Shown here piece after piece: positions 1-31,977 of a stretch of DNA of 39,843 nt (positions within the stretch are counted from its first letter, which is position 1; the number at the start of each line of letters is the position of its first letter). The notes beneath the pieces were generated by a model. That model did no database searches. It was not told the origin of the DNA and saw only the letters and a list, made by a program, of their open reading frames with translations. The DNA is taken from positions 1-39,843 of the forward strand of contig JAJRQY010000175.1 of assembly GCA_024280015.1 (NCBI GenBank). The letters are read 5' to 3'. A program made the translations under genes and the position numbers. Origin of the DNA: Actinomycetes bacterium. Lineage in GTDB: Bacteria > Actinomycetota > Acidimicrobiia > Acidimicrobiales > SZUA-35.

Positions 1-1020
1 AAGGACATGTCCTTTCCCGACATGGACAATTCCGATCAGGAGATTCTCGGAGGGGCCAAGACCGTCGATCACCCATTCTGGGATCTGGACGGCGTGCATG
101 AGATCATCCGAGATTGGCGGATAATTCTTGATGAGTATTCCGAGGTCGGGGCCGAGCGCATGATGGTGGCTGAAGCGTGGGTGGCCACACCAGAACGCCT
201 GGCTAACTACTTGCGACCAGATGAGTATCAGCAGTCATTCAACTTCGATCTGCTGGCTTCGGAGTGGGATGCGTCGGCAATGCAAACCATCATCGTCGAA
301 GCCTGCGCCCAGGCGGCGGCCGTTGGCTCAACCCCGACCTGGGTCCTGTCCAACCATGACGTTGTCCGCCACGCCACCCGCTATGGGCTTCCGATCGGCA
401 CGGACTGGCGGCGCTGGCTATTGGAAGGGCCTCACGATGTGCTCGATATTGAGCTGGGGCAACGGCGCGCTCGGGCCGCAACCCTGCTCCTGCTCGGCCT
501 ACCCGGCTCCTCCTATATCTATCAGGGCGACGAGCTTGGCTTGGATGAGGTTTGGGACCTCCCAGTCGATGTCTTGGACGATCCGGTTTGGGAGCAGTCC
601 GGACACACCCGCAAGGGCCGAGATGGCTGCCGGGTTCCGCTGCCTTGGACGTCCAGTGGTCCTTCATTCGGGTTTGGCGATGGCACCGGTTGGTTGCCTC
701 AACCCGAACGGTTCGGCTCCATGTCCGCCGCCTCACAACAGGGCGATCCCCAGTCAATGTTGGAGCTCTACCGACTGGCCTTGTCGGTGCGTCGCCAGCA
801 CCTCGTCAACGACGAGAGTATCCAGATGCTGGATGTTGGAACTTCCGTGGTGGCCTTTAGGCGTGGCTCAGGCGTGCAGTGTTGGTTGAATCTGGGTCAA
901 GATCCCGTCAACCTCCCAGCAGACCTCACAACCCCAGAAACGATTCTGGTTCGTAGCTTCCCTAGCAACGACGACTCGGTCTTGCCCGGCAACTCTGCCA
1001 TCTGGCTCCAAAGGGACTAG
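1..1020 (+). CDS. GH13 alpha-glucosidase / alpha-amylase family, C-terminal part (5' end outside window)
   Basis: Hydrolase of alpha-glucosidic bonds in oligosaccharides such as maltose or isomaltose. The reading frame is open from base 1, so the gene begins upstream; the ATG at 7 is internal. Visible are the end of the (beta/alpha)8 barrel with the general-acid Glu58 in VAEAW, the third carboxylate Asp120 in SNHD, the YIYQGDELGL segment after the barrel, and a short C-terminal beta domain. The nucleophile Asp region is missing because it lies before the window. The segment from GRDGCRVPLPW resembles actinobacterial GH13 alpha-glucosidases. It is followed after 111 bp by an ABC exporter pair with which I see no functional link. 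The family is certain; the substrate is not. Confidence 0.93.
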   Translation, partial: KDMSFPDMDNSDQEILGGAKTVDHPFWDLDGVHEIIRDWRIILDEYSEVGAERMMVAEAWVATPERLANYLRPDEYQQSFNFDLLASEWDASAMQTIIVEACAQAAAVGSTPTWVLSNHDVVRHATRYGLPIGTDWRRWLLEGPHDVLDIELGQRRARAATLLLLGLPGSSYIYQGDELGLDEVWDLPVDVLDDPVWEQSGHTRKGRDGCRVPLPWTSSGPSFGFGDGTGWLPQPERFGSMSAASQQGDPQSMLELYRLALSVRRQHLVNDESIQMLDVGTSVVAFRRGSGVQCWLNLGQDPVNLPADLTTPETILVRSFPSNDDSVLPGNSAIWLQRD

Positions 1021-1081
1021 ACAGGGACTGGGCAGGTACCAGATGCCAGCTCCAACCGTCAGCCAAAGGGATGAACCCAAT

Positions 1082-1098
1082 CATCCTTCTGGAGGATG
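1082..1098 (+). other. short hairpin between GH13 gene and ABC genes
   Basis: Perfect 6-bp inverted repeat CATCCT / AGGATG with a 5-nt loop. Its right arm covers a purine-rich stretch and the ATG at 1096. A start at 1096 would have GGAGG directly against the ATG and inside this stem, which argues that translation of the ABC ATPase begins instead at 1132. It lies 62 bp after the GH13 stop; there is no T-tract, so a terminator role is weak. Confidence 0.4.
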
Positions 1099-1118
1099 GC
1101 GAGGAATCTGCATAGGCT

Positions 1119-1124
1119 TAGGGT
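1119..1124 (+). promoter_or_regulatory. candidate -10 box for leaderless ABC ATPase mRNA
   Basis: TAGGGT ends 7 nt before the ATG at 1132 and there is no Shine-Dalgarno sequence at a normal distance. This is the same geometry seen before several other first-in-unit genes in the window. No good -35 is visible. Confidence 0.45.
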
Positions 1125-1131
1125 CAGTCGC

Positions 1132-1917
1132 ATGACAGTCCTACCTCCCGACACACCAGCCCCCATCCCACCACAAATCCCCGCAAGTGGTGTTGCCATG
1201 GCGGCACGATCCGACCAGGCAAGCAAGGTCTACGGCCTTGGCGACACCGAAGTCCACGCCCTACGCAGCGTGAGCGTCGGCTTCCAAGCCGGAGTGTTCA
1301 CCTCGATCATGGGACCGTCTGGCTCAGGCAAATCAACCCTCATGCAATGCATGGCCGGACTTGATCGCCTCAGCAGCGGTGAGGCATATATCGGAGATAT
1401 CCCGATCTCGTCTCTGACCGACAAGCAGCTCACCCTGCTTCGACGGGACAAGATTGGATTTGTCTTCCAGTCCTTCAACCTGATCCCAACGCTCAATGCT
1501 CTGGAGAACATCACCCTCCCCATGGATCTTGCCGGAGTCAAGGGTGATACCGAGTGGGTCAATAGTGTGATCGCAACGGTGGGACTCGCCGACCGAGTCG
1601 GTCACCGACCCAACGAGCTTTCCGGCGGGCAGCAACAGCGAGTGGCTGTGGCTCGCGCTCTGGCCAGTCGACCCGACATCATTTTCGCCGATGAGCCGAC
1701 TGGAAACCTCGACTCCAAGACGGGCGCGGAGATTCTCAGCTTCATGCGCTCCGCAGTGAACGAATTGGGGCAAACGATTGTCATGGTCACCCACGATCCG
1801 GTTTCCGCTTCCTATTCCGACCGCGTTCTCTTTCTGGCTGACGGTTCCATCGTTGATGAGATGCATCAACCGACGGCCGACAGTGTGTACGACAAAATCC
1901 GTCACCTCGGAGACTGA
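1132..1917 (+). CDS. ABC transporter ATP-binding protein, MacB/LolD type
   Basis: ATPase subunit that powers the permease encoded 2 bp downstream. From the ATG at 1132 it is 261 aa, the usual size. Walker [10 protein letters not shown] is at residues 61-69, the LSGGQQQR signature near 163-170, Walker B FADEPTG near 184-190, followed by the D-loop NLDS and the switch His in VTHD. The GDTEV segment after KVYG and the CMAGLDR after Walker A are typical of the LolD/MacB/FtsE-like class. An in-frame ATG at 1096 exists but lies in a hairpin with GGAGG directly abutting it, whereas TAGGGT 7 nt before 1132 fits a leaderless start. The substrate of such actinobacterial pairs (lipid, peptide or drug) cannot be told from sequence. 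Confidence 0.93.
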
Positions 1918-1919
1918 AC

Positions 1920-4694
1920 ATGGGCCACATTCTGAAGCTTGCTGTACGGGGCATCCGCGCCCACCTGGGACGCCTAGCCCTCACATTTGTCGCAATCTCT
2001 CTTGGTGTCGGCTTCGTCTCCGGCTCATTCATCATCAAGGATTCACTGGCTGAAGTCTTCGATGGGATTGTTAGCAAGGCCAACGCCGACGTTGACGCCC
2101 GCGTCCAGCTGGCTGACATTGAGTTTGGCGAAGTGGCAACCACCATTCCTGACACGCTGGTCGCCGAACTTGAAGCCCTGCCCGAGGTCGGGTTTGCTGA
2201 AGGCGGAGTCGGGCTTGAGCAGGTCAATGCATTTGTTCCCTTGGATGAGGATGGAGAGCAACAGCTCCCCAAGGGTCCGCCAATCCTGACCTTCAGTTGG
2301 GACGGAACTCGTGAGGGTGCGACTGAGGTGTTTACGCTCGATGAGGGAACCAACCCAGGTCCCGGCCAAGTCGCCATCGACAATGCCCAGGCCGAGGCGA
2401 TCGGCGCCCACGCCGGCGACGTTGTTACCTTTACCACTCCAACCGGATTGCAGGACTTCGAAATCTCCGGAATCACCCGATTCGATGGTGCCGCTGGCGC
2501 CTGGTTCGTCTTGTTTGATCTGGAAACTGCGCAAGCCCAATTCGACAAGGTCGGTCTGATCGACTCGATCTCGCTTGGTGCCGCAATCGGAACTACCGAG
2601 CAAGAGCTGCTGTCTGCAATTGAGCCTTCTCTGCCCACTGGAGTCGAGGTCCTTGGCAACTCCGCCATCATCGAAGAGGACTCAGCCGATTTCAACGAGG
2701 TCATCAACATCATTGGCAACCTATTGCTGGCGTTCGCCCTAGTCGCCTTGTTCGTCAGCCTCTTCATTATCTACAACACCTTCGCCATCTTGGTCAGTCA
2801 GCGCATCCAGGAGATTGGCATGTTGCGGGCAATTGGGGCCACATCGAATCAGGTTCTCAGTTCCATCATCTTTGAGGCGCTCATCGTCGGGATCCTTGGC
2901 TCAATCGCTGGAATCGTCACCGGTGTTGGTGTAGCCGCAGCCATCAAGGGACTGTTCGAGAGTGTTGGAGGGTTCCCCGAAACCGGAACGGTTATCGGTG
3001 CTCGCACCATCATTGTCTCACTCGTCGTCGGACTGGTGGCCACCCTCGTGTCCGCCCTCCTCCCGGCCTTCCGAGCAAGCCGGATCTCGCCGATTGCCGC
3101 CATGCGCAACGAGGCGCCAAACGAAGGCCGGACCAAGCTCCGCACCATCATCGGAGCAGTGACTACCGGATTGGGATTGGCGGCAATTCTCGCCGGCTTG
3201 TTCGGTGGCTTGAGCACCTCCCTGCTTCTTACCCTCCTCGGCGTCGGGGCCGTGTTTACCTTTGTTGGGGTGTCCATGTTGAGCGCATTGTTTGCTGGCC
3301 CTGTCGCCAATGCCATTGGCCGGGCACCAATCATGGCGGTACTGAGCCTGCTCGGTGGAGTCATTCTGACCCTCCTAGGAGTGGCTGCGGCTATCGGGGG
3401 GGTCGCCGGGCCTTCCCTCCTGCTGATCAGAGATGGGATGTCTAGCTCAGCCATCGGGGCGGTCTTTGGTGGCGTACTTTTCGCCCTTATCGGTGTCACC
3501 ATGATTCGCTCGGGCATCCCCGCTATCGGGCGAGCCATGGTCTTGTTTGCTCACCTGCCTGGTTCTGGCCCGGAGACGAAACTGGTCCGCCTCGCTCGAC
3601 AAAATGTCGCTCGGAATCCCCAACGTACTGCTGCTACTGCCACCGCCCTGATGATCGGGCTGGCATTGGTGACCACTGTTGGAGTTCTTGGACAGTCACT
3701 CAAGTCCACCTTCTCCAACACCCTGGACACCGCCATCAGCGCCGACCTCTTCATCTACAGTGCCAACGGTGAGGACATTCCTGTGTCCTTGGCCAACGAG
3801 ATCAATCAGGTCGAGGGCATTGATCTTCTGGCTCGGTTCCGGGGCGAAAACATGAAGATCGGTGAGGACATCGTGGACATCGTCGCTTTCGAGACAGCGA
3901 CAACCGATCGGATTCTCAATATCGATGTCACGTCCGGTGAACCACGAGAACTTGGGGCTGGTGAGGTGTACGTCTTCGCCGACCGCATGGAAGCGCTCGG
4001 CGCCAGCATTGGCGACACGTTCAACGCACAGTTTGCCGACGGTTCGGAGACAACCTTCACCATTGCTGGGGTCTATGCCGACAAGTCGGTAGTTGGCGCC
4101 GAGTACCTCATTGACCTGGCGACCTTCGAGCAATTCTACCCCGAGGTCGAAGATGGTTTCCTTGGAGCAACCATTGCCGAGGGGGCTGACAACGACGCGG
4201 TGAAAGCTCAAGCCATCGAGATCTCATCGGCTTACTCACAAGTTGAGGCCAAGGACAGTCAGGAATTCCGAGATGCCCAAGAAAGTCAGGTGAACAGCCT
4301 GCTTGCTCTGGTGAACGGATTACTTGGCCTGGCCCTCATCGTTGCCTTCTTCGGAATTGTCAACACCATTGTCTTGTCGGTACTGGAACGGACAAGAGAG
4401 ATTGGCCTGATGCGAGCCATCGGTATGACCCGAGGTCAGCTCATGACCACCATCCGGTTGGAGGCCCTGATCGTCTGCATCTTTGGGGCCGCCCTTGGGT
4501 TGGCTCTGGGTGTGCTGTTTGCTTGGGCTGCAATCTCAGCCATTCCTGGCGAGATCATCAGCACCGTCAGTATCCCGTGGATGTTGATGGCCATGATCAT
4601 GGCTGTCTCTGCTGTGATCGGAGTGCTTGCCGCCTTCCTGCCTGCACGTCGGGCCGCACAGTTGGATGTGTTGGAAGCAATCAGTACCACCTGA
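1920..4694 (+). CDS. ABC transporter permease, FtsX/MacB type, duplicated
   Basis: Membrane subunit of the exporter, 924 aa, starting 2 bp after the ATPase stop and so translationally coupled to it. A first helix (about 20-40) is followed by an extracytoplasmic MacB-like domain (about 45-255) and three FtsX helices (about 260-390, containing IQEIGMLRAIGAT). A run of four or more additional hydrophobic segments (about 410-545) precedes a second set: helix (about 575-600), a second extracytoplasmic domain, and a closing FtsX block (about 795-924, with REIGLMRAIGMTRGQL). The two copies mean one chain may supply both halves of the transporter. The hydrophobic insert in the middle is typical of the long actinobacterial permeases of this class. 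Cargo is unknown. Confidence 0.93.
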   Translation: MGHILKLAVRGIRAHLGRLALTFVAISLGVGFVSGSFIIKDSLAEVFDGIVSKANADVDARVQLADIEFGEVATTIPDTLVAELEALPEVGFAEGGVGLEQVNAFVPLDEDGEQQLPKGPPILTFSWDGTREGATEVFTLDEGTNPGPGQVAIDNAQAEAIGAHAGDVVTFTTPTGLQDFEISGITRFDGAAGAWFVLFDLETAQAQFDKVGLIDSISLGAAIGTTEQELLSAIEPSLPTGVEVLGNSAIIEEDSADFNEVINIIGNLLLAFALVALFVSLFIIYNTFAILVSQRIQEIGMLRAIGATSNQVLSSIIFEALIVGILGSIAGIVTGVGVAAAIKGLFESVGGFPETGTVIGARTIIVSLVVGLVATLVSALLPAFRASRISPIAAMRNEAPNEGRTKLRTIIGAVTTGLGLAAILAGLFGGLSTSLLLTLLGVGAVFTFVGVSMLSALFAGPVANAIGRAPIMAVLSLLGGVILTLLGVAAAIGGVAGPSLLLIRDGMSSSAIGAVFGGVLFALIGVTMIRSGIPAIGRAMVLFAHLPGSGPETKLVRLARQNVARNPQRTAATATALMIGLALVTTVGVLGQSLKSTFSNTLDTAISADLFIYSANGEDIPVSLANEINQVEGIDLLARFRGENMKIGEDIVDIVAFETATTDRILNIDVTSGEPRELGAGEVYVFADRMEALGASIGDTFNAQFADGSETTFTIAGVYADKSVVGAEYLIDLATFEQFYPEVEDGFLGATIAEGADNDAVKAQAIEISSAYSQVEAKDSQEFRDAQESQVNSLLALVNGLLGLALIVAFFGIVNTIVLSVLERTREIGLMRAIGMTRGQLMTTIRLEALIVCIFGAALGLALGVLFAWAAISAIPGEIISTVSIPWMLMAMIMAVSAVIGVLAAFLPARRAAQLDVLEAISTT

Positions 4695-5574: not shown

Positions 5575-8500
5575 TCAGGCGCGGAGGACGGGGCCCTTGT
5601 AGCCGGGGGCGAAGCCGTTGGCCAGCAGGAGATCACGAGCTTGGGACTGCTCAGCCGGGGGTTGACCGTTGATTTTCTGGATCTCGATCCGCTTCACCCG
5701 TTTCCGGCGCAGCAGGGAGGCCAGGCCTTCGATCCACGATGGGTCTTCGAGAGCACCGCTGAACAAGGTCAGGCTGCGAGCTCCTCGATCCAGAAAGGCC
5801 AGAGGCAAGCCGTCTCGCAGAACCACGTACGCACCAACCGAACGCGACGGACGGCCAGTGGTTTCTGGCCAAGCCAGGGCCGCGCCATAGGGCTGAGCCG
5901 GGTCACAAGCCGCCAGGGTGAGCAGGCCGGTAATCTCGCTACTTCCATTTCCTTGCACAACAGCCGAGCTGGGTAATGCTGGCTGGCCAGACGGACGTAG
6001 GTCTCGCAATCGGTCGACAGCTCCGGGCAGCGCGAACTGTGCTGCCCCAAGTCCGGCAACGAAATAGCCTCGACGCACCTGGCCTCGATCCTCCAGTTCC
6101 TTCAATACCGGATAGACCCCAGCGAAGCCACCCTCGGCCCCTTCAGCCAACGCCATCTCCCGGGTCAATACCCCGTAGCGCTCCAACAGTTGTAGGGCCC
6201 GAGTAGCGATGATCTCCGTCGACAAGGGTGCCGGTTCGCGCAGCGGCGCAACCAGTGACCATCGACCGGTTCCCGCCGGTGGGCCAAGCCGGGAGATGGA
6301 ACGCAGGTTCGGCCGCCGGGAGCCTCGACGACTGTTTGACGATGCCTTCTTGGGCGATGCTCCGCCGATGACGGCACGAAGAGGAGTCAGCGAGTCGTTG
6401 GTGACCTCGCCGGCCCAGACCAGGTCCCACAAGGCATTCAGGATCGCCGCGTCGTCATAGGCGAGGCTGACGGCCTGGGTTGCCGCCACTAGGTCAGACC
6501 AGAACACCGCCCCACGTTCACCCAGGAAGTCTCGGAGGATCTGGTGCAGCTCTACTTCCGGTGCATCATTGGGCTCGGGCAACAACATGGGAGCCTGATC
6601 ACGCCATACCAGTCGAATCCGGCCATCGCCCGATCCCAACGAACCAGCCCCGGCCCAGACCACTTCTCCCGCGGTCAACAAGGTGTCGAGGTCGGCCTGG
6701 GAATATGACGAAACTCGGGCAGCCAAGATGTCTGCCTCCAGCGCCGACGCCGGTAGGGCCGCCCCCTGCAAAGCGGTAATCACCTCAGACAGGCCATCAA
6801 CACCGTGCAACCGGCGTGAACCTTGGGAGGCAACGTGTTGCCAGGCGGGAAGAAAGCGGGCCAAGACATCTTGTTCAACTGGTTCCACCTCACGTCGAAG
6901 GGCAGCCAAGGAACGACGCCGGAGCTGACGCAAGACCTCGTTGTGACACCACTCTCGCTCCACACCATCGGGACGGAACTCGCCACGGACAATTCGGCCC
7001 TGCCGTTCCAGCTCTTCCAGTCCGGCTCGGGTTCGCTCGGCCTCCAGGCCGTAGCGACGGGCGACCTCGACGGTGAGGAACGGCCCATGGGTTCGCGCGT
7101 ATCGGGTGAGCAGGTCACCAAAGGGATCGGCAACTGAATCGGTGAACGCCTGGGGCAAACCCGGTGGCAGCGCAACACCCAGGGCGTCACGAAGGCGCGA
7201 GGCGTCCTCACTAGCAGCCATTCGCCGCTCACCGGCGACGACAACTTCAATCAGGCGACGATCTCTCAAGAGGGCAGCCACCGACTCGGTGGCATCGATG
7301 CCTCCATCATTCACCGACAAGACCCGATCGGCGATCTCGGCTTGGGTAAGCGGGCCAAGCCAGCGCAGGAGATCTTCCACATGATCGACCGTCTTGGCTT
7401 GCCAACTCTGGACCGTCCGCTGCAACTCGGCTTCAATGGAAGCCAGAACCTCGGGGTCCAACAGCTCGCGCAGTTCCTCCGCTCCAAGCAGATCTCGAAG
7501 GAGTTCTCGATCCAGCGACAAAGCAGCAGCCCGGCGCTCGGCCAGCGGGGCATCACCCTCATACATGTACTGGGCAATCCAGCCAAACAAAAGCGAAGCC
7601 GCCATGGGTGATGCCGAGTCGGTGTCGACGGCCACCACCTTGATCTTGCGACTACGAAGATCGCCCAACACCTGGCGCAGCCCGGGGATGTCAAACACGT
7701 CGTTGACACACTCGCGAGTTGTTTCCAACAGCATGGGGAAGGTGGGGTACTTGGCTGCCACCGCCAAAAGATCAGCCGCCTTCTGACGCTGTTGCCACAA
7801 GGGAGTGCGACGATCGGGTCGACGGCGAGGAAGAAGCAAAGCCCGAGCCGAGGCCTCACGGAAGCGGGAAGCAAACAGGGCAGTGTTGGGAAGCCGACTG
7901 ATGAGAAGCTCATCCAAATCATCCGGATCGATCAGCAGCTCATCGTTGGGCAACCGGTCGATGGCTTCGGGCAGGCGAAGGACTATGCCATCGTCACTCC
8001 ACATGAGTTCGACGTCCCAGCCCCACTGGTCGGCCATGCGATGTTGAAGAGCCATGCCCCAGGGGGCGTGAACTTGAGCGCCAAAGGGCGTGAGAATACA
8101 GATTCGCCAGTCGCCAATCTCGTCTCGGAACCGTTCGACGATGACGGTTCGATCATCGGGTAGTCGGCCGGTGGATTCCACTTGCTCATCCAGGTAACCC
8201 AACAGGTTATTGGCAGCCAGAGAATCCAGCGAGCTTCGCTCCCGTAGCCGAGTGATGGCCTCATCCCGAGGAAGATTGCTGATCTCTCGGGTGAAGGTGG
8301 CAATGGCGCGACCCAACTCCAGAGGGCGACCCGGACCATCACCATGCCAGAAGGGCATCTTGCCCGGCTGGCCAGGAGCGGGAATGACGACCACTCGTTC
8401 GTGGGTGATGTCCTCGATCCGCCAGGTGCTGGCCCCCAGCAGGAAGGTCTCGCCCGCGCGAGACTCATAGACCATCTCCTCATCCAGCTCACCCACTCGG

Positions 8501-10197
8501 GTTCCGTCGGGCAAGAAGACTCCATAGAGGCCCCGGTCCGGGATGGTGCCACCGGAAGTAACGGCAAGGCGTTGGGCTCCGGGACGGCCACGCACGACTC
8601 CTTCCACCCGGTCCCAATTGACTCGAGGCCGCAGCTCGGCGAACTCATCAGATGGGTATCGGCCCGCCAACATGTCCAGAGTGTTGTTGAAGGCCTCGTC
8701 GGAGATGTCGGCGAAATTGGCGGCACCCCGCATCATCGAAAGCAGTTCGTCAACCGGCCAGTCATCCATGGCGCAGGCGGCAACGATCTGTTGGGCCAAT
8801 ACGTCCAGTGGATTGCGGGGATAGCGGGTTTCCTCTATGAGGCCGGTCTTCATCCGTTCAACGACGACGGCAGCTTCCAGCAGGTCGGCACGATGCTTGG
8901 GGAAGAGCTTGCCGACACTGGGTGCACCAACCTGGTGTCCGGCGCGGCCAATTCGTTGCAGTCCTCGACTGACGGCACCCGGCGACTCAACCTGGATGAC
9001 CAGGTCCACCGCTCCCATGTCAATACCAAGTTCCAACGAAGAGGTGGCGACGATGCCCTTGAGTACCCCTCGTTTGAGTTCGTCTTCGATCTGGAGTCGC
9101 TGGGTTCGACTGAGGGAGCCGTGGTGGGCCTTGACCAGTTCTTCGCCGGGCATTGGTGGGCGGCCTTCGGCTTCGGCCGAGCGGTTCTCACCAGTCATTG
9201 CCAGCTCGTTCAAGCGGGTGGCGAGGCGTTCGGCCAGGCGTCGAGCATTGACGAAGATGATGGTCGACTGGTGTTCTTGAATCAGTTCCAGGAGGCGGGG
9301 GTGCATGGACGGCCAGATGGATCGACGAGGCATGGAGCCGTCGTCCAACGGCACGACATCCGTGCCGCTTTCTCGCTCTCCCAGGTTGGCCATGTCTTCA
9401 ACGGGGATGATGACCTCGACGTCCAACTCTTTGGAGATGCCGGTGTCGATGATGGTGACCGGCCGGAGCTGGCGAGGTCCGGCAAGACCGTTCTTGTTGT
9501 CTGGGTCGACGGTCGCTTCGGTCCCTCCCAGGAATCGGGCGATCTCTTCTAACGGTCGCTGGGTGGCCGAAAGCCCGATGCGTTGGGGAGGTCGATCGGT
9601 GATGGCTTCCAGGCGTTCCAGGGTGATAGCCATGTGAGCGCCGCGTTTGGTGGCAGCCAGGGCGTGGATCTCGTCGATGATGACGGTTTCGACCCCAACC
9701 AAGGTCCGGCGGATCTTGCTGGTCAGCATGAGATAGAGCGACTCAGGGGTGGTGATGAGTAGATCTGGTGGATTGGTGGCCAACTTGCGCCGCTCGGAGG
9801 CGGGAGTATCACCGGAACGGATGGCCACCTGGGGTTCGGTGAAGGGTTCACCTAGACGTTCGGCCGCCAAGCGGATGCCCTGCAACGGTCCACGCAGGTT
9901 CTTCTCAACGTCGACGGCCAGGGCACGCAGAGGTGAGATGTAGAGGATGCGGGTGCGGTGATTCTTGTCGACTGGTATCGGCCGACTGGTCAGTTGATCC
10001 AGACCCCAGAAGAAGGCCGACAGGGTTTTTCCCGAGCCGGTCGGGGCCAGAATCAGGGTGTGCTCACCACGGGCAATGGCAGGCCAGCCTTCTACCTGGG
10101 GTGGGGTCGGCTCGACAAAAGTGGTACTGAACCACTCAGCCGCGGAGCGACTAAACCCGTCCAGGGCAGGGTGGATGGTCGGTGACAGCTCCGGCAT
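5575..10197 (-). CDS. lhr: Lhr-like ATP-dependent helicase
   Basis: Large superfamily 2 3'-5' DNA helicase, 1540 aa, the length of actinobacterial Lhr, which is damage-inducible in mycobacteria. Motifs in order: Q motif around TPPQ (31-34), Walker A APTGSGKT (51-58), DEIH box (about 172-175), SAT (about 203), the TSSLELGIDMG block and QRIGRAGH (motif VI, about 415). These are followed by the winged-helix and Lhr core domains and the long C-terminal Lhr extension, which carries further winged-helix-like segments. The start at 10197 agrees with the N-terminal Q-motif position. TAGCTT (10212-10207, minus) lies 9 nt upstream and could be its -10. It is divergent from the sulfurtransferase gene. 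Confidence 0.96.
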   Translation of the reverse strand: MPELSPTIHPALDGFSRSAAEWFSTTFVEPTPPQVEGWPAIARGEHTLILAPTGSGKTLSAFFWGLDQLTSRPIPVDKNHRTRILYISPLRALAVDVEKNLRGPLQGIRLAAERLGEPFTEPQVAIRSGDTPASERRKLATNPPDLLITTPESLYLMLTSKIRRTLVGVETVIIDEIHALAATKRGAHMAITLERLEAITDRPPQRIGLSATQRPLEEIARFLGGTEATVDPDNKNGLAGPRQLRPVTIIDTGISKELDVEVIIPVEDMANLGERESGTDVVPLDDGSMPRRSIWPSMHPRLLELIQEHQSTIIFVNARRLAERLATRLNELAMTGENRSAEAEGRPPMPGEELVKAHHGSLSRTQRLQIEDELKRGVLKGIVATSSLELGIDMGAVDLVIQVESPGAVSRGLQRIGRAGHQVGAPSVGKLFPKHRADLLEAAVVVERMKTGLIEETRYPRNPLDVLAQQIVAACAMDDWPVDELLSMMRGAANFADISDEAFNNTLDMLAGRYPSDEFAELRPRVNWDRVEGVVRGRPGAQRLAVTSGGTIPDRGLYGVFLPDGTRVGELDEEMVYESRAGETFLLGASTWRIEDITHERVVVIPAPGQPGKMPFWHGDGPGRPLELGRAIATFTREISNLPRDEAITRLRERSSLDSLAANNLLGYLDEQVESTGRLPDDRTVIVERFRDEIGDWRICILTPFGAQVHAPWGMALQHRMADQWGWDVELMWSDDGIVLRLPEAIDRLPNDELLIDPDDLDELLISRLPNTALFASRFREASARALLLPRRRPDRRTPLWQQRQKAADLLAVAAKYPTFPMLLETTRECVNDVFDIPGLRQVLGDLRSRKIKVVAVDTDSASPMAASLLFGWIAQYMYEGDAPLAERRAAALSLDRELLRDLLGAEELRELLDPEVLASIEAELQRTVQSWQAKTVDHVEDLLRWLGPLTQAEIADRVLSVNDGGIDATESVAALLRDRRLIEVVVAGERRMAASEDASRLRDALGVALPPGLPQAFTDSVADPFGDLLTRYARTHGPFLTVEVARRYGLEAERTRAGLEELERQGRIVRGEFRPDGVEREWCHNEVLRQLRRRSLAALRREVEPVEQDVLARFLPAWQHVASQGSRRLHGVDGLSEVITALQGAALPASALEADILAARVSSYSQADLDTLLTAGEVVWAGAGSLGSGDGRIRLVWRDQAPMLLPEPNDAPEVELHQILRDFLGERGAVFWSDLVAATQAVSLAYDDAAILNALWDLVWAGEVTNDSLTPLRAVIGGASPKKASSNSRRGSRRPNLRSISRLGPPAGTGRWSLVAPLREPAPLSTEIIATRALQLLERYGVLTREMALAEGAEGGFAGVYPVLKELEDRGQVRRGYFVAGLGAAQFALPGAVDRLRDLRPSGQPALPSSAVVQGNGSSEITGLLTLAACDPAQPYGAALAWPETTGRPSRSVGAYVVLRDGLPLAFLDRGARSLTLFSGALEDPSWIEGLASLLRRKRVKRIEIQKINGQPPAEQSQARDLLLANGFAPGYKGPVLRA

Positions 10198-24880: not shown

Positions 24881-24915
24881 GCTGGCCAGACCGATTGATG
24901 GGCGGTCTGGCCAGC
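24881..24915 (-). terminator. strong hairpin terminating the 25023-27976 unit
   Basis: Perfect 13-bp inverted repeat (GCTGGCCAGACCG and its complement) with a 9-nt loop, 107 nt after the stop of the membrane protein at 25023. On the minus strand it is followed by AAGACGCGTTTTTGG, a short T-run 8 nt past the stem, so it is an imperfect intrinsic terminator. Confidence 0.7.
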
Positions 24916-25022: not shown

Positions 25023-25724
25023 CTAGGCCTCGTGACGGTGTCCGTTGCTGGCTGCGACCTCCCGAATGCGAGTGGCCTGGAATCGGATTACTTCACTGAT
25101 GGTGGCCAGACCAAAGGTGATGCCAACGAGATAGGTCACGGTGCCAAGGCGCCGCAAGGCAGAACCGATTGCTCCGTACTGCGCACTGCTCACAATGTCA
25201 GCGGCTGTAGTCCCGTCAAAGCTGCCAGCAGCAACGAAGTTGGTGATGATTCCAGCCCCCATAATCATCATCCCCATCATCATCAGGCCAAGCATGATCT
25301 TGGCCGTCGTCAGCATCTTGAGTGTCTGAACCGGAGAGCCTGCTGCTTCCTGAACCTCACCGCCACCCTTGCGGAACTCACCAAGAATTCTGGCCACAGC
25401 AAAGGTGATGGCACTGAAGACACCTAGGAAACCAACAAACATGAAGGCTGGAACCAGATGACCCAAGGTCTGGAGATCATCGACATTGGCCCGGTCTGTC
25501 CCTGCCTCAGTAATGGCCAGGATAAGCCCAGCCGTCCAGCCCATGAGGGCCATGGCGAACATTGGGAGCCAGAGCTTGCGTCCTACCCGTTGGGGGAGGT
25601 TGTAGCCCAGCGACTTCTCGCTGGTGACGACCTGGAAGCCGTCATTCCTGGTGGTTCCCCGAGATCCCTTTGTCGTATTGATCCGAGGAGTTGTGGTGGT
25701 AGTAGTTGTCGTAGTCGTAGTCAT
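25023..25724 (-). CDS. uncharacterised four-helix membrane protein, paralogue A
   Basis: 233 aa. It starts with a run of eleven Thr codons, then a hydrophilic segment (to about 50) and four predicted helices: about 53-72 (LPMFAMALMGWTAGLILAI), 88-110, 146-168 (GLMMMGMMIMGAGIITNFV) and 198-215. Between helices 2 and 3 is GGGEVQEAAGSPVQTLKMLTTAK, strongly matching GGEVQSSLGLPVTTLKM in the neighbouring gene; the Met-rich GLMMMG helix is also shared. I do not recognise a named family. AGAGG 9 nt before the ATG is its ribosome-binding site; it lies 30 nt behind paralogue B and ends before a strong hairpin. Confidence 0.85.
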   Translation of the reverse strand: MTTTTTTTTTTTPRINTTKGSRGTTRNDGFQVVTSEKSLGYNLPQRVGRKLWLPMFAMALMGWTAGLILAITEAGTDRANVDDLQTLGHLVPAFMFVGFLGVFSAITFAVARILGEFRKGGGEVQEAAGSPVQTLKMLTTAKIMLGLMMMGMMIMGAGIITNFVAAGSFDGTTAADIVSSAQYGAIGSALRRLGTVTYLVGITFGLATISEVIRFQATRIREVAASNGHRHEA

Positions 25725-25754
25725 GATTCGTTACCTCTCGATTGGTGTTGGAGC

Positions 25755-26594
25755 TCAGGCGCCGGTTCGGATGATTGAGTTGACACGGTTGAATTGGAAG
25801 GCAAGCACATTGCCGATGGTGACGAGGGCCAGAACAATGCCAGCCAGGATGAGCCCTAGAGAGAGCTCACGGAACGGTCCGAGCCAATTGAGCCAAGACG
25901 AGAATGAAGCAGCGTCATTGGCGTTGCCAAGGGCCACCAGGTAGAGGACGAATTGGACCATGCCGATCATCAGTCCCATCATCATCAGACCAATGAAGGC
26001 CTTGCCAGCTAGCGGCATCTTGAGGGTGGTAACGGGAAGACCGAGGCTGGATTGCACCTCACCGCCTGCGGTTCGCAAGCTGGCCATGATCGAGCCCAGC
26101 AAGAACGCTATGCCTGACAACAGGAAGGCTTCTCCCATGAACTCGATGCCCTGGGTGAAAGCTGCGGCCTGGCGAAAACTCTCGGTTCCTGGGACTTGAT
26201 CGGCCCACACAAATGAGCTGATGAGGCCAGCAGCGAGTGCCATGAAGCCCATGGCAAGCATGGGACGCCACATGAAGAGTGCCATCCGGTGAATGAAGAG
26301 GGGCTTTGGTGGAGCATCGGTGACATTTGCCGGTCCCCATTGGGTCTTGATTGTTCCCCGGGCTATTGATGGTTCATCACTGTGACCATGCAGGAGCACA
26401 AGCGCATCCTTGATGGCGTCAGCTCGACCCCAGAGTCGAACGATGATTCCCATCAGGGTGATGGCGATGGCGATCTTGACCACTCCAAAGGAGAAGATCG
26501 AGAGGCCGAATGTCCAGGCAAGTGTTTCCTTGTACCCGGTGGTGGCGTTGACTCCTGGTGCTGGCCGAGCGGCTAGCTGGCTGACTCCTGACAT
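25755..26594 (-). CDS. uncharacterised membrane protein, paralogue B
   Basis: 279 aa from the ATG at 26594, which has AAGGAAGG upstream; a longer frame to 26696 would run through the palindrome and is rejected. An extra N-terminal helix (about 28-50, FSFGVVKIAIAITLMGIIVRLW) and a linker with a His-containing HGHSDEP segment precede the four-helix core shared with paralogue A (about 110-275). The core has the same order of helices, the GGEVQ-PV-TLKM loop and the GLMMMGLMI helix. No enzyme motif is seen; conserved Met residues in helix 3 are notable. Position directly after a Crp/Fnr regulator suggests it is a target. Confidence 0.83.
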   Translation of the reverse strand: MSGVSQLAARPAPGVNATTGYKETLAWTFGLSIFSFGVVKIAIAITLMGIIVRLWGRADAIKDALVLLHGHSDEPSIARGTIKTQWGPANVTDAPPKPLFIHRMALFMWRPMLAMGFMALAAGLISSFVWADQVPGTESFRQAAAFTQGIEFMGEAFLLSGIAFLLGSIMASLRTAGGEVQSSLGLPVTTLKMPLAGKAFIGLMMMGLMIGMVQFVLYLVALGNANDAASFSSWLNWLGPFRELSLGLILAGIVLALVTIGNVLAFQFNRVNSIIRTGA

Positions 26595-26663
26595 GATGTT
26601 TCCCTTCCTTATTGCTCCACACGGTTCGGGAGCGTTGGAAGAGGAAACCGCCGGATCAGGCTC

Positions 26664-26695
26664 TGAATCCGCAATTGTCGCAATTGCGAGATTCA
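26664..26695. promoter_or_regulatory. long imperfect palindrome between the Crp/Fnr gene and the membrane pair
   Basis: TGAATC-CGCAATTG, loop TCG, CAATTGCG-A-GATTCA: 14 complementary pairs with one bulged base, including the regulator's stop codon (26693-26695). There is no T-run after it on the minus strand, so it is not a classical terminator. It may be an operator, an RNA-processing site or a transcription-attenuating hairpin 70 nt before paralogue B. Confidence 0.55.
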
Positions 26696-27445
26696 ATTCT
26701 GAGACTCTGTTTCCTGGCTGTCCACCCCGATCAGTGCCTGAAGCGCCTCCTGGTCCAGCAAGATGATTCTCCGGTACTTCAACTCAATGACCTTCGAGGC
26801 CTCCAATGCCTTAAGAACACGCTGGACACTGGTGCGAGCGGCTCCGAGCATCTCGGCCAGTTGGTCTTGAGTAAATCGGACATCGCCAGATTCCGATCCT
26901 TCTCGAAGCAAGATCGAAGCGAGCTGCGCCTCCAGTCCACCGGCGAGCAGATCAACAAGGCGTTCTTGCAGCCCAGCCATTCGCTCGGCCAGTGAGATGA
27001 ACCAGCGCTGTGCCAGCAAGGGACGGGTCTGCAAGAGGCTAAACAAAGCAGCAGCATCGAGGGACAGCACAGTGCAATCCTCCAGTGCTCGCGCGTCGAA
27101 GGGTTCTGGCTCACCAAGGAAGGCGGGAACGTCGCCAAACACATCACCAGGCCGAAGGATCTGCAACGCCACCTGCCGGCCGCTCACCTCTCGAGACAGC
27201 TCAAGAGTTCCCGTTCGAAGGATGTGGATCTGCGCCGATGGGTCACCTCGCCGGAAGACGAATGTTCCTCCTGCGTAAGACTGTTCCCCAACCTGGTCGA
27301 CCAGCAACTCGACGTCATGTTCACCCATAGGGGCTCGCTGGCCGCGACCAAGGCAACAGGCGATCCATGAGCTGTAGTGCGAAAGACGGGTTCCAACCCG
27401 GGCAAGGTGTCGCCGCGGAGCAATGGGAGGGGCGTGGCGCTTCAT
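26693..27445 (-). CDS. Crp/Fnr-family transcriptional regulator
   Basis: 250 aa. An N-terminal extension of about 40 residues containing WIACCLGRGQ, with paired Cys, precedes the cyclic-nucleotide-binding beta-roll (about 50-150: YAGGTFVFRRGDPSAQIHILRTGTLEL and LRPGDVFGDVPAFL), the long dimerisation helix (about 150-180) and a C-terminal winged helix-turn-helix (RFTQDQLAEMLGAARTSVQRVLKALE, about 195-225). Ligand unknown: the pocket lacks the exact GE-RSA signature for cAMP, and no Fnr-like four-Cys cluster is present. A TTG at 27454 could start 3 residues earlier. It follows the 27485-27976 gene by 39 nt and precedes the membrane-protein pair in the same direction. Confidence 0.9.
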   Translation of the reverse strand: MKRHAPPIAPRRHLARVGTRLSHYSSWIACCLGRGQRAPMGEHDVELLVDQVGEQSYAGGTFVFRRGDPSAQIHILRTGTLELSREVSGRQVALQILRPGDVFGDVPAFLGEPEPFDARALEDCTVLSLDAAALFSLLQTRPLLAQRWFISLAERMAGLQERLVDLLAGGLEAQLASILLREGSESGDVRFTQDQLAEMLGAARTSVQRVLKALEASKVIELKYRRIILLDQEALQALIGVDSQETESQN

Positions 27446-27484
27446 GGCACACAAACCCGAACGGCCGGATGGAGATTCCCGTCC

Positions 27485-27976
27485 CTAGTGCCAGTGCTCT
27501 TCGAGACCCGGAAGTGGGCTGAATCCTTCGGCTGGGCCAACCTGGATGGTGGCGATGGCAGCCAACGCTGGGTCGACATACTTCAAGGCTTCAGCCATGG
27601 TAGTGCACTTCTTCTTGATGGCCTTCCGTGAGATCGACCGAACGGCCCGCAACTCGACCTCTTCACCCGTTGCCAGTCGTAAGACCGGAAACCACCACTT
27701 GACGCCTTTGGAACGAACGAATCCCATGCCAAGGTCAGCGATGTTCTCGACCAGGAACTCACTGCGTCGGTCGATCCGTACGTAAACCAGACGGCCAGGG
27801 GTGAGCTCAATAAAGGCGAGCACTTTGGCGAAGCTGAGAACCATGAACAGGTTGAACCCGGCCAAAATCGGTTTGCCGTTCACCATGTTCGGGTAGATGG
27901 ACACCAACCCGAAGAGGCCCATGAACGTCATGCTCAACGTGAAGTAGATCCCTGGCAAGATCCGCATCTTATTCAT
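27485..27976 (-). CDS. uncharacterised small membrane protein with C-terminal cytoplasmic domain
   Basis: 163 aa from the ATG at 27976 (a GTG at 27985 is an alternative; AGGGG lies 11 nt before the ATG). Two helices (about 6-25 and 37-57) form a hairpin; the rest is a soluble domain with alternating strands (RLVYVRIDRRSEFLVEN, GVKWWFPVLRLATGEEVELRAV) and a helix (AIKKKCTTMAEALKYV), resembling bacterial membrane-anchored PH-like domains, although this is by pattern only. First gene of the unit that continues with the Crp/Fnr regulator. A hairpin (28044-28073) separates it from dtd. Confidence 0.75.
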   Translation of the reverse strand: MNKMRILPGIYFTLSMTFMGLFGLVSIYPNMVNGKPILAGFNLFMVLSFAKVLAFIELTPGRLVYVRIDRRSEFLVENIADLGMGFVRSKGVKWWFPVLRLATGEEVELRAVRSISRKAIKKKCTTMAEALKYVDPALAAIATIQVGPAEGFSPLPGLEEHWH

Positions 27977-28043
27977 GGGGTACACGGCCCCTGGTTGTGC
28001 GCATTCTTCTTCGATGCATGCCAGGTGGATCGGCCAGTTGACC

Positions 28044-28073
28044 GGTCGCCTTTAGCAAGAGGTCAAGGCGACC
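28044..28073 (-). terminator. hairpin after dtd
   Basis: Perfect 9-bp arms (GGTCGCCTT and AAGGCGACC) around a 12-nt loop, 16 nt past the dtd stop. No T-tract follows on the minus strand, so termination may be partial or factor-dependent. It marks the upstream boundary of the 25023-27976 gene group. Confidence 0.55.
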
Positions 28074-30540: not shown

Positions 30541-30568
30541 TCAGAGATAGCTCTTGAAAGGAGCCATC

Positions 30569-30946
30569 ATGACAACCAACCCAACCATCCAATCCACCCG
30601 GGTCGAACCCGCTCAACGACGCAGATTCACCAAGGCTGAGAAACACCAAATCGTCGCGGAGTACGATGCCGCTAGCACCCCAACTGAGAAAGGGATCGTT
30701 CTACGATCCTGGGGCACCTACCAACAGAACGTATCCCGCTGGAAACGCGAGAACCAAATGACCAAACCCAAACAGCCAGCCAAACCCTCCCAGGCCGAGA
30801 CTCGACTCGCCAAACAGTTGGCCACTGCGGAGAAGAAACTCAACGCATCCCAAGACCGGGTCAATCTTCTTGAGGAACTGGTAGAAGCCCAGGGAAAAGT
30901 ACTCGGGCTGCACGCAAAAAACACGGGCAGCCCCTCTCAGGCATAG
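30569..30946 (+). CDS. IS3-family OrfA (DNA-binding part of transposase)
   Basis: 125 aa from the ATG at 30569, preceded by a strong AAAGGAG ribosome-binding site 5 nt away. The N-terminal helix-turn-helix (FTKAEKHQIVAEYDAA to VSRWKREN) would bind the IS ends; a long Leu-heptad coiled coil (about 65-105, AETRLAKQLATAEKKL and VNLLEELVEAQGKV) would dimerise it. Near its end the gene contains the A_AAA_AAC site that allows ribosomes to enter orfB. Confidence 0.88.
   Translation: MTTNPTIQSTRVEPAQRRRFTKAEKHQIVAEYDAASTPTEKGIVLRSWGTYQQNVSRWKRENQMTKPKQPAKPSQAETRLAKQLATAEKKLNASQDRVNLLEELVEAQGKVLGLHAKNTGSPSQA
30916..30922 (+). promoter_or_regulatory. programmed -1 ribosomal frameshift site A_AAA_AAC
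   Basis: The heptamer is in the canonical X_XXY_YYZ phase of orfA (codons GCA AAA AAC). After a -1 slip the frame stays open for 13 codons into the ATG of orfB at 30961 and onward, producing an OrfAB fusion. Family knowledge: IS3 elements make their active transposase this way. Confidence 0.85.
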
Positions 30947-30960
30947 GCCATGAACCCTCC

Positions 30961-31977
30961 ATGAACGGTGTCATTACTTGGGAACCCCGCATCGGCGTGA
31001 CCCAAGCCTGTCGAGCATTCGGAATCGCGGAGCGAACGTGGCGCCATCACTGCCAAAGCCTGCGAGGCGAGGCCAGGGAACGGCCTTCACGGGCGAGGTG
31101 CGGGCCACCAAAACCTCACCCAGCGTCCTTAACCAAAGCCGAGAAACAGGTAGTACTGGATGTGTTGTGCTCACCGCGTTTCTGTGATGTTGGTGTGCTC
31201 GAAGCGTGGGCCACATTGTTGGATGAAGGCACCTATCTTTGCTCAGCTAGAACCATGCACAGGGTGCTCCAAGAGCACGATCTGACTGGGGAACGACGCC
31301 AATCCGCATATCGGGAACGAGCCGGGCGGCCCAGGGTTGTGGCTACTGCACCGAACATGGTTTGGTGCTGGGACATAACCCGTCTGAAGGGCCCAGCCAA
31401 GGGCATCTGGTTCTATATGTATGTGATCTATGATTTGTGGTCACGCAAGATCGTGGGCTGGACCATCGACAAGACTGAGACGGGTGAGATAGCCAAGAAT
31501 TTGATCACAGTCACCGCCGGTCGTGAGCAGGTTGAGCAGCATCAGTTGACTATTCATTCTGATCGTGGTGCACAGATGGTTTCGGGGACTTTGACTGACC
31601 TTTACGATTCTTTGGGGGTCCGTCGATCCCTGTCGCGGCCGAGGGTGAGCAATGACAATCCCCACGCTGAATCAGGGTTCAAAACCATGAAGTATCGGCC
31701 GGATTGGCCGGGAGCATTCGACACGATTGAGGATGCTTTCGAGCATTGTGAGAGTTTCGTGGATTGGTACAATTTTGAGCATCATCACACTGGGATTGGG
31801 TTACTAACCCCGGCGGATCGTCACGCTGGCCGTGGCCAGGCTGTTGAGTCTGCTCGTCAATCGACTTTGGATGAGGCGTTTGAGGCACATCCGGAGAGGT
31901 TCACTTATGGGCGTCCTCGACCACCGTCCCAGCCGTCTCGAGTGTGGATTAATCCGCCGTCGGTCAGAGCTAAGTAG
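30961..31977 (+). CDS. IS3-family OrfB (integrase-fold catalytic part of transposase)
   Basis: 338 aa if read from the ATG at 30961; the functional product is probably the OrfAB fusion. An N-terminal HTH_21-like region (ACRAFGIAERTWRHHC) is followed by the rve catalytic core with Asp138 (WDIT), Asp201 (HSDRG) and Glu237 (HAESGFKTMK), a 35-residue Asp-Glu spacing. YNFEHHHTGIGLLTPADRH is the usual C-terminal block. Complete, with no frameshift or stop apart from the programmed one. Confidence 0.92.
   Translation: MNGVITWEPRIGVTQACRAFGIAERTWRHHCQSLRGEARERPSRARCGPPKPHPASLTKAEKQVVLDVLCSPRFCDVGVLEAWATLLDEGTYLCSARTMHRVLQEHDLTGERRQSAYRERAGRPRVVATAPNMVWCWDITRLKGPAKGIWFYMYVIYDLWSRKIVGWTIDKTETGEIAKNLITVTAGREQVEQHQLTIHSDRGAQMVSGTLTDLYDSLGVRRSLSRPRVSNDNPHAESGFKTMKYRPDWPGAFDTIEDAFEHCESFVDWYNFEHHHTGIGLLTPADRHAGRGQAVESARQSTLDEAFEAHPERFTYGRPRPPSQPSRVWINPPSVRAK

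Follow-up and report, generated by a model that had tools for sequence, protein, structure and literature searches.

A regulator beside two membrane proteins

What does a Crp/Fnr regulator control when it lies directly before two membrane proteins that fit no named family? We asked this of a 39,843-nucleotide stretch from an Actinomycetes bacterium (contig JAJRQY010000175.1 of assembly GCA_024280015.1; Acidimicrobiia, Acidimicrobiales, SZUA-35), here called the window, in which the genes D, crp, B, and A are co-directional. An earlier reading made from the letters alone (the sequence-only reading) had taken positions 25023 to 27976 for an undescribed four-gene unit bounded by hairpins, with a sensor-type regulator directly before its likely targets. 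We found that the conserved unit is crp-B-A and not four genes. The protein families, the conservation of the B-A pair, the linkage of the regulator to it, and a conserved site upstream of B were computed directly. On balance, we favor the explanation that a regulator of the type of Mycobacterium tuberculosis Cmr governs two membrane proteins that act together in envelope thiol or nitrosative stress. The pair is conserved and undescribed, occurs in uncultured actinobacteria, and comes with a probable regulator and operator, which makes its function testable. The findings also suggest that the Cmr-type circuit, known so far from work on a pathogen, is more ancient and more widespread than the mycobacteria and is linked with thiol-disulfide genes. 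Loci and genomes used for comparison carry the prefixes L and G. The features of the window are as follows.

27485-27985, minus strand: D, 166 amino acids, upstream of crp; in the span of the sequence-only reading, judged here to lie outside the conserved unit
26693-27454, minus strand: crp, a Cmr-type Crp/Fnr regulator, 253 amino acids from a TTG; an in-frame ATG at 27445 is a possible start
27341-27367, minus strand: WIACCLGRG segment of the regulator, its second Cys aligned with Cmr Cys36
26676-26691: predicted regulator-binding site TCTCGCAATTGCGACA (minus-strand reading), one mismatch to TGTCR-N6-YGACA, 82 to 97 bases before the B ATG
25755-26594, minus strand: membrane protein B, 279 amino acids from an ATG; relatives have six helices, the window copy lacks the first
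25023-25724, minus strand: membrane protein A, 233 amino acids, with four helices that are paralogous to the last four of B
24881-24915, minus strand: hairpin 3' of A, perhaps a transcription end
28044-28073, minus strand: second, weaker hairpin, between dtd and D; dtd transcription perhaps ends here

Genes were called with a simple open reading frame (ORF) caller, and starts are uncertain. The ATG of B is preceded by the ribosome-site-like AAGGAAGGG; an alternative TTG at 26696 would give 313 amino acids.

Conservation of the B-A pair

A scan of genome contigs with A returned six loci, all in metagenome-assembled genomes titled Acidimicrobiia, Acidimicrobiales, Acidimicrobiaceae, Actinomycetes, or Actinomycetota, and B lay directly before A in each. 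A profile of B matched 40 of 395 sampled genomes of the class, including three (G198, G364, and G394) that match only at an E value of 3e-5 or worse. With a joint profile of B and A, 17 of 396 genomes of the phylum matched, 13 of them outside the class, with G791 and G860 weak. Matches were few among closer relatives: with A as the query, 3 of 198 genomes of the order matched, one of them weakly, and with the B profile, 3 of 39 genomes of the family.

Across 50 loci, A was found directly 3' of B in 44. Forty of these were as called, on the same strand, and in the other four (L009, L054, L065, and L117) A was present by direct match, having been missed by the gene caller. The remaining six comprise two that reach a contig end (L075 and L077), three that have diverged (L073, L123, and L125), and one fused ORF (L124). 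A 51st locus, L126, in which neither B nor A was called, was set aside. Also left out were the weak fragments L127 to L129, the fragment contig L140, and L013, L045, and L138, which duplicate the contigs of L116, L014, and L012, respectively; L061 and L078 belong to the same genome. At L124 (positions 7506 to 9203; G610), B and A form a single chimeric ORF, as if the paralogues had recombined.

The sequence-only reading had called the two membrane proteins paralogous and without a nameable family, and both statements held. A and B share 32 to 34% identity (E = 3e-18), which makes them paralogues. Neither reached a Pfam or NCBIfam cut-off, and relatives of A and B tried in Pfam likewise had no match; the best E value in PHROGs, which has no cut-off, was only 0.014. 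Weak Pfam matches to Rv2743c (E = 0.024), Wntless (E = 0.049), and a PspC region (E = 0.015) were taken as chance. The B-A pair is thus an undescribed family in the libraries searched. No relative of B from L010 was found in plasmid records, and a literature search, judged by titles and abstract openings, found no paper on the pair; it returned one paper on a nonmycobacterial bacterium that cites Cmr only in its reference list.

Structure models gave four long helices for A (mean predicted local distance difference test score [pLDDT], 78.8) and six for the B of L010 (mean pLDDT, 81.5). Foldseek found no match to solved proteins at an E value of 0.001 for A or B, and the VIA rows for B were generic helical bundles. 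Likeness to long-helix bundles, BAR domains, rhodopsins, and oxidase subunits was set aside as weakly scored and uninformative. By the positive-inside rule, both termini of A and of B read as cytoplasmic. Four residues of B (K77, E193, Q252, and R280 in the numbering of L010) were invariant in all 41 sequences, and E281 was kept in 40 of 41; the four invariant residues fall within predicted long helices.

The six helices of B are built as two plus four. L073 and L123 carry a short ORF, with two hydrophobic stretches, ahead of a four-helix ORF, an arrangement suggesting that fusion gave rise to B and that A is a duplicate of the four-helix part. The B of the window has five helices: it lacks the first (∼37 residues), present in all seven aligned relatives, through either an in-frame deletion or an assembly fault.

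Extent of the unit

D lies ∼30 bases from crp and runs in the same direction, as would suit a unit D-crp-B-A between the two hairpins, as the sequence-only reading proposed. We consider this four-gene unit very improbable. A tblastn search of D against 221 loci found only the window's own copies and distant relatives at L136 and L137, and no relative of D stood beside B-A. Relatives of D occurred in 3 of 39 genomes of the family, among them the genomes of L136 and L137, both of which are without B-A. With no D relative beside B-A, the four-gene unit was rejected, and the unit is taken as crp-B-A. D itself reached no Pfam or NCBIfam cut-off, like the other two membrane proteins; its two helices were judged by eye.

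Both inverted repeats are present, with the upstream one weaker. The hairpin 3' of A has a perfect 13-bp stem (−27.7 kcal/mol; z, −5.8), and the one between dtd and D (−17.9 kcal/mol; z, −3.1) went unreported when the repeat finder was set to require at least 12 bp. Neither was among the terminator-like sites listed for the window, and an Rfam scan of the window gave no match at the gathering score. Nothing ties either hairpin to crp-B-A. Some 2.6 kb beyond D, two consecutive ORFs (30554 to 31977) resemble, by eye, an IS3-type transposase pair.

Linkage of the regulator to B-A

In 12 of 50 loci, a Cmr-like crp lay no more than ∼220 bases from B-A, in four arrangements; just 29 of the 50 have at least 700 bases on both sides. 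It was upstream on the same strand, as the sequence-only reading had it, in six loci (the window, L010, L011, L047, L119, and L122), two of them from other classes; in six more it was divergent (L048, L052, and L055), downstream on the same strand (L074 and L139), or convergent (L118). L118, L119, and L122 are the loci from other classes. The genome of the window has 15 HTH_Crp_2 matches in 4.8 Mb, six of them above the cut-off, so chance is a poor account of a crp beside B-A.

The association extends to genomes as wholes. A second regulator profile delimited an orthologue group at 230 bits or more, with the next matches reaching 160, and 69 of 395 genomes contained a member of this group, 32 among the 40 genomes with B-A versus 37 among the 355 others (Fisher P = 1e-20, uncorrected for relatedness). 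Of the eight B-A genomes outside the group, four (G000, G108, G222, and G342) have a Cmr-like type, and four (G373, G443, G461, and G474) had no Cmr-like regulator at an E value of 1e-20. A CC-type profile at an E value of 1e-40 was found in 7 of 395 genomes of the class, namely, those same first four, which have B-A, and G358, G370, and G377, which do not. In the latter three, all of one genus, Cmr-like regulators lie near genes resembling, by eye, molybdenum hydroxylases or 2Fe-2S subunits (L089, L090, and L093 in G358 and G370; L091 in G377).

A conserved palindrome upstream of B

Up to 250 bases upstream of B were searched in the 38 loci with upstream stretches of at least 120 bases. An unsupervised expectation-maximization search for palindromes returned TGTCGgCtaGcCGACA, with a posterior above 0.8 in 31 of the 38, mostly 73 to 104 bases before B. 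Its score was 168, compared with 24 to 32 in six shuffled sets, for which fewer restarts were used. Counted as TGTCR-N6-YGACA with site starts from −130 to −56 relative to B, the site was exact in 18 of 38 loci, within one mismatch in 25, and within two in 30; the corresponding means over 200 dinucleotide shuffles were 0.025, 0.46, and 5.0 (maxima, 1, 3, and 11). For L122, the exact copy, at −45, falls beyond the counted stretch, and the locus was entered as four mismatches. The palindrome was found before B with or without an adjacent crp, and at L184 and L186 one-mismatch sites lie just upstream of crp.

The TGTC/GACA arms are identical to those of the published Cmr site, TGTCAGCGTGCTGACA, in which altered arms abolished binding (PMC5499769). 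The window copy sits in the crp-B gap, just past the crp stop, in the same position as in relatives. The window holds nine one-mismatch copies against 5.5 expected, a number reached by 12 of 100 shuffles, so the weight of this site rests on its position. Judged from sequence, regulation of B-A by a Cmr-type regulator is well supported, and the regulator of the window would be expected to bind the predicted operator. We consider it very likely that the circuit of regulator, operator, and B-A is real.

A regulator of the Cmr type

The regulator matched PF00027 (cNMP_binding; E = 1e-20) and PF13545 (HTH_Crp_2; E = 1e-14), both above cut-off, which places it in the Crp/Fnr superfamily as the sequence-only reading had proposed. 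In a comparison restricted to solved structures, its best relative was M. tuberculosis Cmr (5w5a and 5w5b; E = 2e-38 to 4e-38; residues 27 to 240), and the next was the CRP Rv3676 (E = 7e-17). Since the alignment to Cmr begins at residue 27, the N-terminal CCLGRG segment noticed earlier, which is kept in relatives, is the counterpart of the Cmr N-terminal segment. Regulator Cys34 aligns with Cys36 of the Cmr redox/nitrosation switch. The only cysteines of the ORF are at positions 2, 33, 34, and 127. On these comparisons, we regard the regulator as a new Cmr-type protein whose switch is altered.

The sequence-only reading had suggested a response to redox, gas, or nucleotide signals. An Arg-Thr-Ser-Ser stretch forms part of the cyclic AMP (cAMP) pocket of Rv3676, and in the window regulator it aligns to E-P-F-D. 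The title of an earlier paper terms Cmr cAMP responsive. PMC5499769 reports that Cmr shows no response to cAMP and that it responds to redox and nitrosation, with Cys36 and Cys131 as its switch cysteines. Because the pocket stretch is replaced and Cmr is reported to be unresponsive to cAMP, a nucleotide signal is not favored; the kinship with Cmr speaks for the redox or nitrosation part of the suggestion.

ACCLxRG was present in 5 of the 12 linked regulators (the window, L010, L011, L048, and L119), while that of L139 has a single Cys at the corresponding position, as does the regulator of L073. The N-terminal segment is missing from the regulator of L122.

Other sites and thiol-disulfide neighbors

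The strict pattern TGTCG-N6-CGACA outnumbered its control in seven of eight genomes, the exception being G407 (one versus two). All 17 exact sites of G380 and G295 outside the B-A promoter were placed, and three more came from G326 and G430 among the six other genomes. Relaxed sites numbered 9 to 17 in five genomes, compared with 1 to 7 for the control pattern. In G457 (17 versus 4), three of the relaxed sites precede, respectively, B, a TlpA-like redoxin, and a DsbD/CcdA-like gene; the other 14, placed on 12 stretches, include six within genes and a few before fumC-, M48 protease (htpX-like)-, and response regulator-like genes. At L185 (positions 812 to 3157) of this genome, crp is flanked by the TlpA-like redoxin and the DsbD/CcdA-like gene, each with an exact operator copy before it. 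An exact site 70 bases before a TlpA-like redoxin in G299 and a site before an HtrA-like protease in G392 were picked from longer lists. The stretches placed from G474 (5 of 16 sites), G299 (2 of 12), and G392 (1 of 15) were partly chosen for strong palindromes and are leads, not a tally; two of these eight (L216 and L219) lie inside a called gene. According to PMC5499769, Cmr acts on its own gene and on the divergent rv1676, described as having a peroxiredoxin-like domain, near dsbF.

These sites, some of them before htpX-, htrA-, and fumC-like genes, could instead belong to a global regulator whose place beside B-A is coincidental, with B-A an ordinary member of a broad regulon or not regulated by it at all. 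The 37 genomes that have the crp orthologue and no B-A would fit such a regulator, but 12 linked loci in four arrangements are unlike coincidence, and the site stands before B irrespective of whether crp is adjacent. We judge this alternative improbable; a broad regulon is itself compatible with Cmr-type control of B-A.

Beyond crp, no neighbor of B-A was universal, and only recurring ones were found; Pfam was run on chosen members only. DoxX-like genes occurred at six loci, all within about 5 kb and three of them at 4.6 to 5.1 kb (Pfam on one); pyridine nucleotide-disulfide oxidoreductases at six, three of them only at 3.4 to 7.3 kb; and YjeF_N-like genes at three. Rhodanese, cupredoxin, thioredoxin, AhpC/TSA, glutaredoxin, DsbD_TM, cytochrome c, and molybdopterin oxidoreductase genes were each seen at single or few loci, some 4 to 7 kb off. 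A family of ∼240 residues recurs within ∼5 kb of B-A at seven loci (including L061, 7138 to 7959, and L122, 3097 to 3864); two members were scanned and had no Pfam match. At L118 (positions 150 to 2174), a mercuric reductase-like flavoprotein with a heavy-metal domain and an ArsR-type regulator adjoin crp and B-A.

Proposed mechanism

We infer binding at the operator, the direction of control, the signal, and the work of B-A as follows. The Cmr-type protein, a dimer by analogy, would bind TGTCR-N6-YGACA ∼80 to 100 bases before the start of B and set the expression of B and A jointly, and in some relatives probably its own expression too. B with six helices and A with four would probably form one hetero-oligomeric membrane complex, which may take part in the response of the cell envelope to thiol-oxidizing or nitrosative stress. 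Oxidation or nitrosation of the neighboring Cys33 and Cys34 would probably be the trigger in the branch of the window. That the circuit serves envelope thiol or nitrosative stress is a tentative assignment, to which we give slightly less than an even chance.

Several observations weigh against this mechanism. The genome counts are inflated by relatedness. Crp orthologues persist in 37 of 355 genomes without B-A, and three of the seven genomes with the CC-type regulator are also without it; such regulators therefore have other duties. Within the branch of the window, the site is degenerate (one mismatch in the window, two in L010, three in L009 and L011, and four in L012), and the recognition helix carries Gln where nearly all others have Asn; the two may reflect co-variation. 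Cmr Cys131 has no counterpart: V129 stands there, and the nearest cysteine, C127, is two residues off and not conserved in L010 and L011. The N-terminal Cys is replaced at L047, L052, L055, L074, and L118, and the regulator of L047 has no Cys at all; a thiol switch thus cannot hold for all, and a Cys pair as a group-wide redox switch was rejected on these five and on L122. Sixteen of the 17 exact sites of G380 and G295 fall within called genes. The thiol neighbors are raw counts over the compared loci, many of which showed none, and structure searches gave no informative match for B-A.

Some of these points would also suit a transporter or channel for one solute or ion, with the linked Crp/Fnr protein sensing a ligand in its cNMP-type pocket and playing no redox role. 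Charged residues (K77, E193, R280, and E281) are conserved in predicted helices, 5 of the 12 linked regulators have an N-terminal segment without Cys, and sites lying inside genes are as for a local regulon. But the sites before TlpA- and CcdA-like genes and the close relation to Cmr point to thiol stress, and the neighbors of B-A show no common substrate pathway. We regard a transporter or channel as unlikely. Returning to Cmr-type control of a stress-related pair, its most far-reaching form is a speculation that we rate as rather improbable: B-A would be a new membrane-embedded redox or proton-coupled relay, built on the Lys/Glu/Gln/Arg set, that maintains the thiols of the envelope during nitrosative stress, while the pairing of Cmr regulator and operator would be a stress circuit of ancient actinobacterial origin, with the Cmr-DosR link of M. 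tuberculosis a late reuse.

Comparison with known systems

FNR-type iron-sulfur oxygen sensors belong to the same superfamily and likewise have N-terminal cysteines, which in FNR bind a 4Fe-4S cluster; the cysteines of the window regulator do not fit that cluster-binding set. CRP (Rv3676) has the same two-domain architecture and differs in its more distant similarity, in the replaced R-T-S-S stretch, and in its N terminus. DoxX, of the mycobacterial membrane oxidoreductase complex, represents small actinobacterial membrane proteins tied to thiol homeostasis, and DoxX-like genes lie near B-A as described above; A and B themselves have no match to PF07681 (DoxX) or any Pfam family.

Cmr (Rv1675c) differs in three respects: no adjoining membrane protein pair is described for it in the available part of PMC5499769, its Cys131 is absent here and the switch position holds a vicinal Cys pair, one Cys, or none, and the recognition helix in the branch of the window has Gln for Asn. 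The two share similarity over their full length, including the N-terminal WIAxC(V/L)GRG segment, and the predicted palindromic operator has the TGTC/GACA arms of the Cmr site. Thiol-redox genes adjoin the regulator in some relatives too, and at L052 and L055 a single site lies between divergent genes, as reported for cmr-rv1676.

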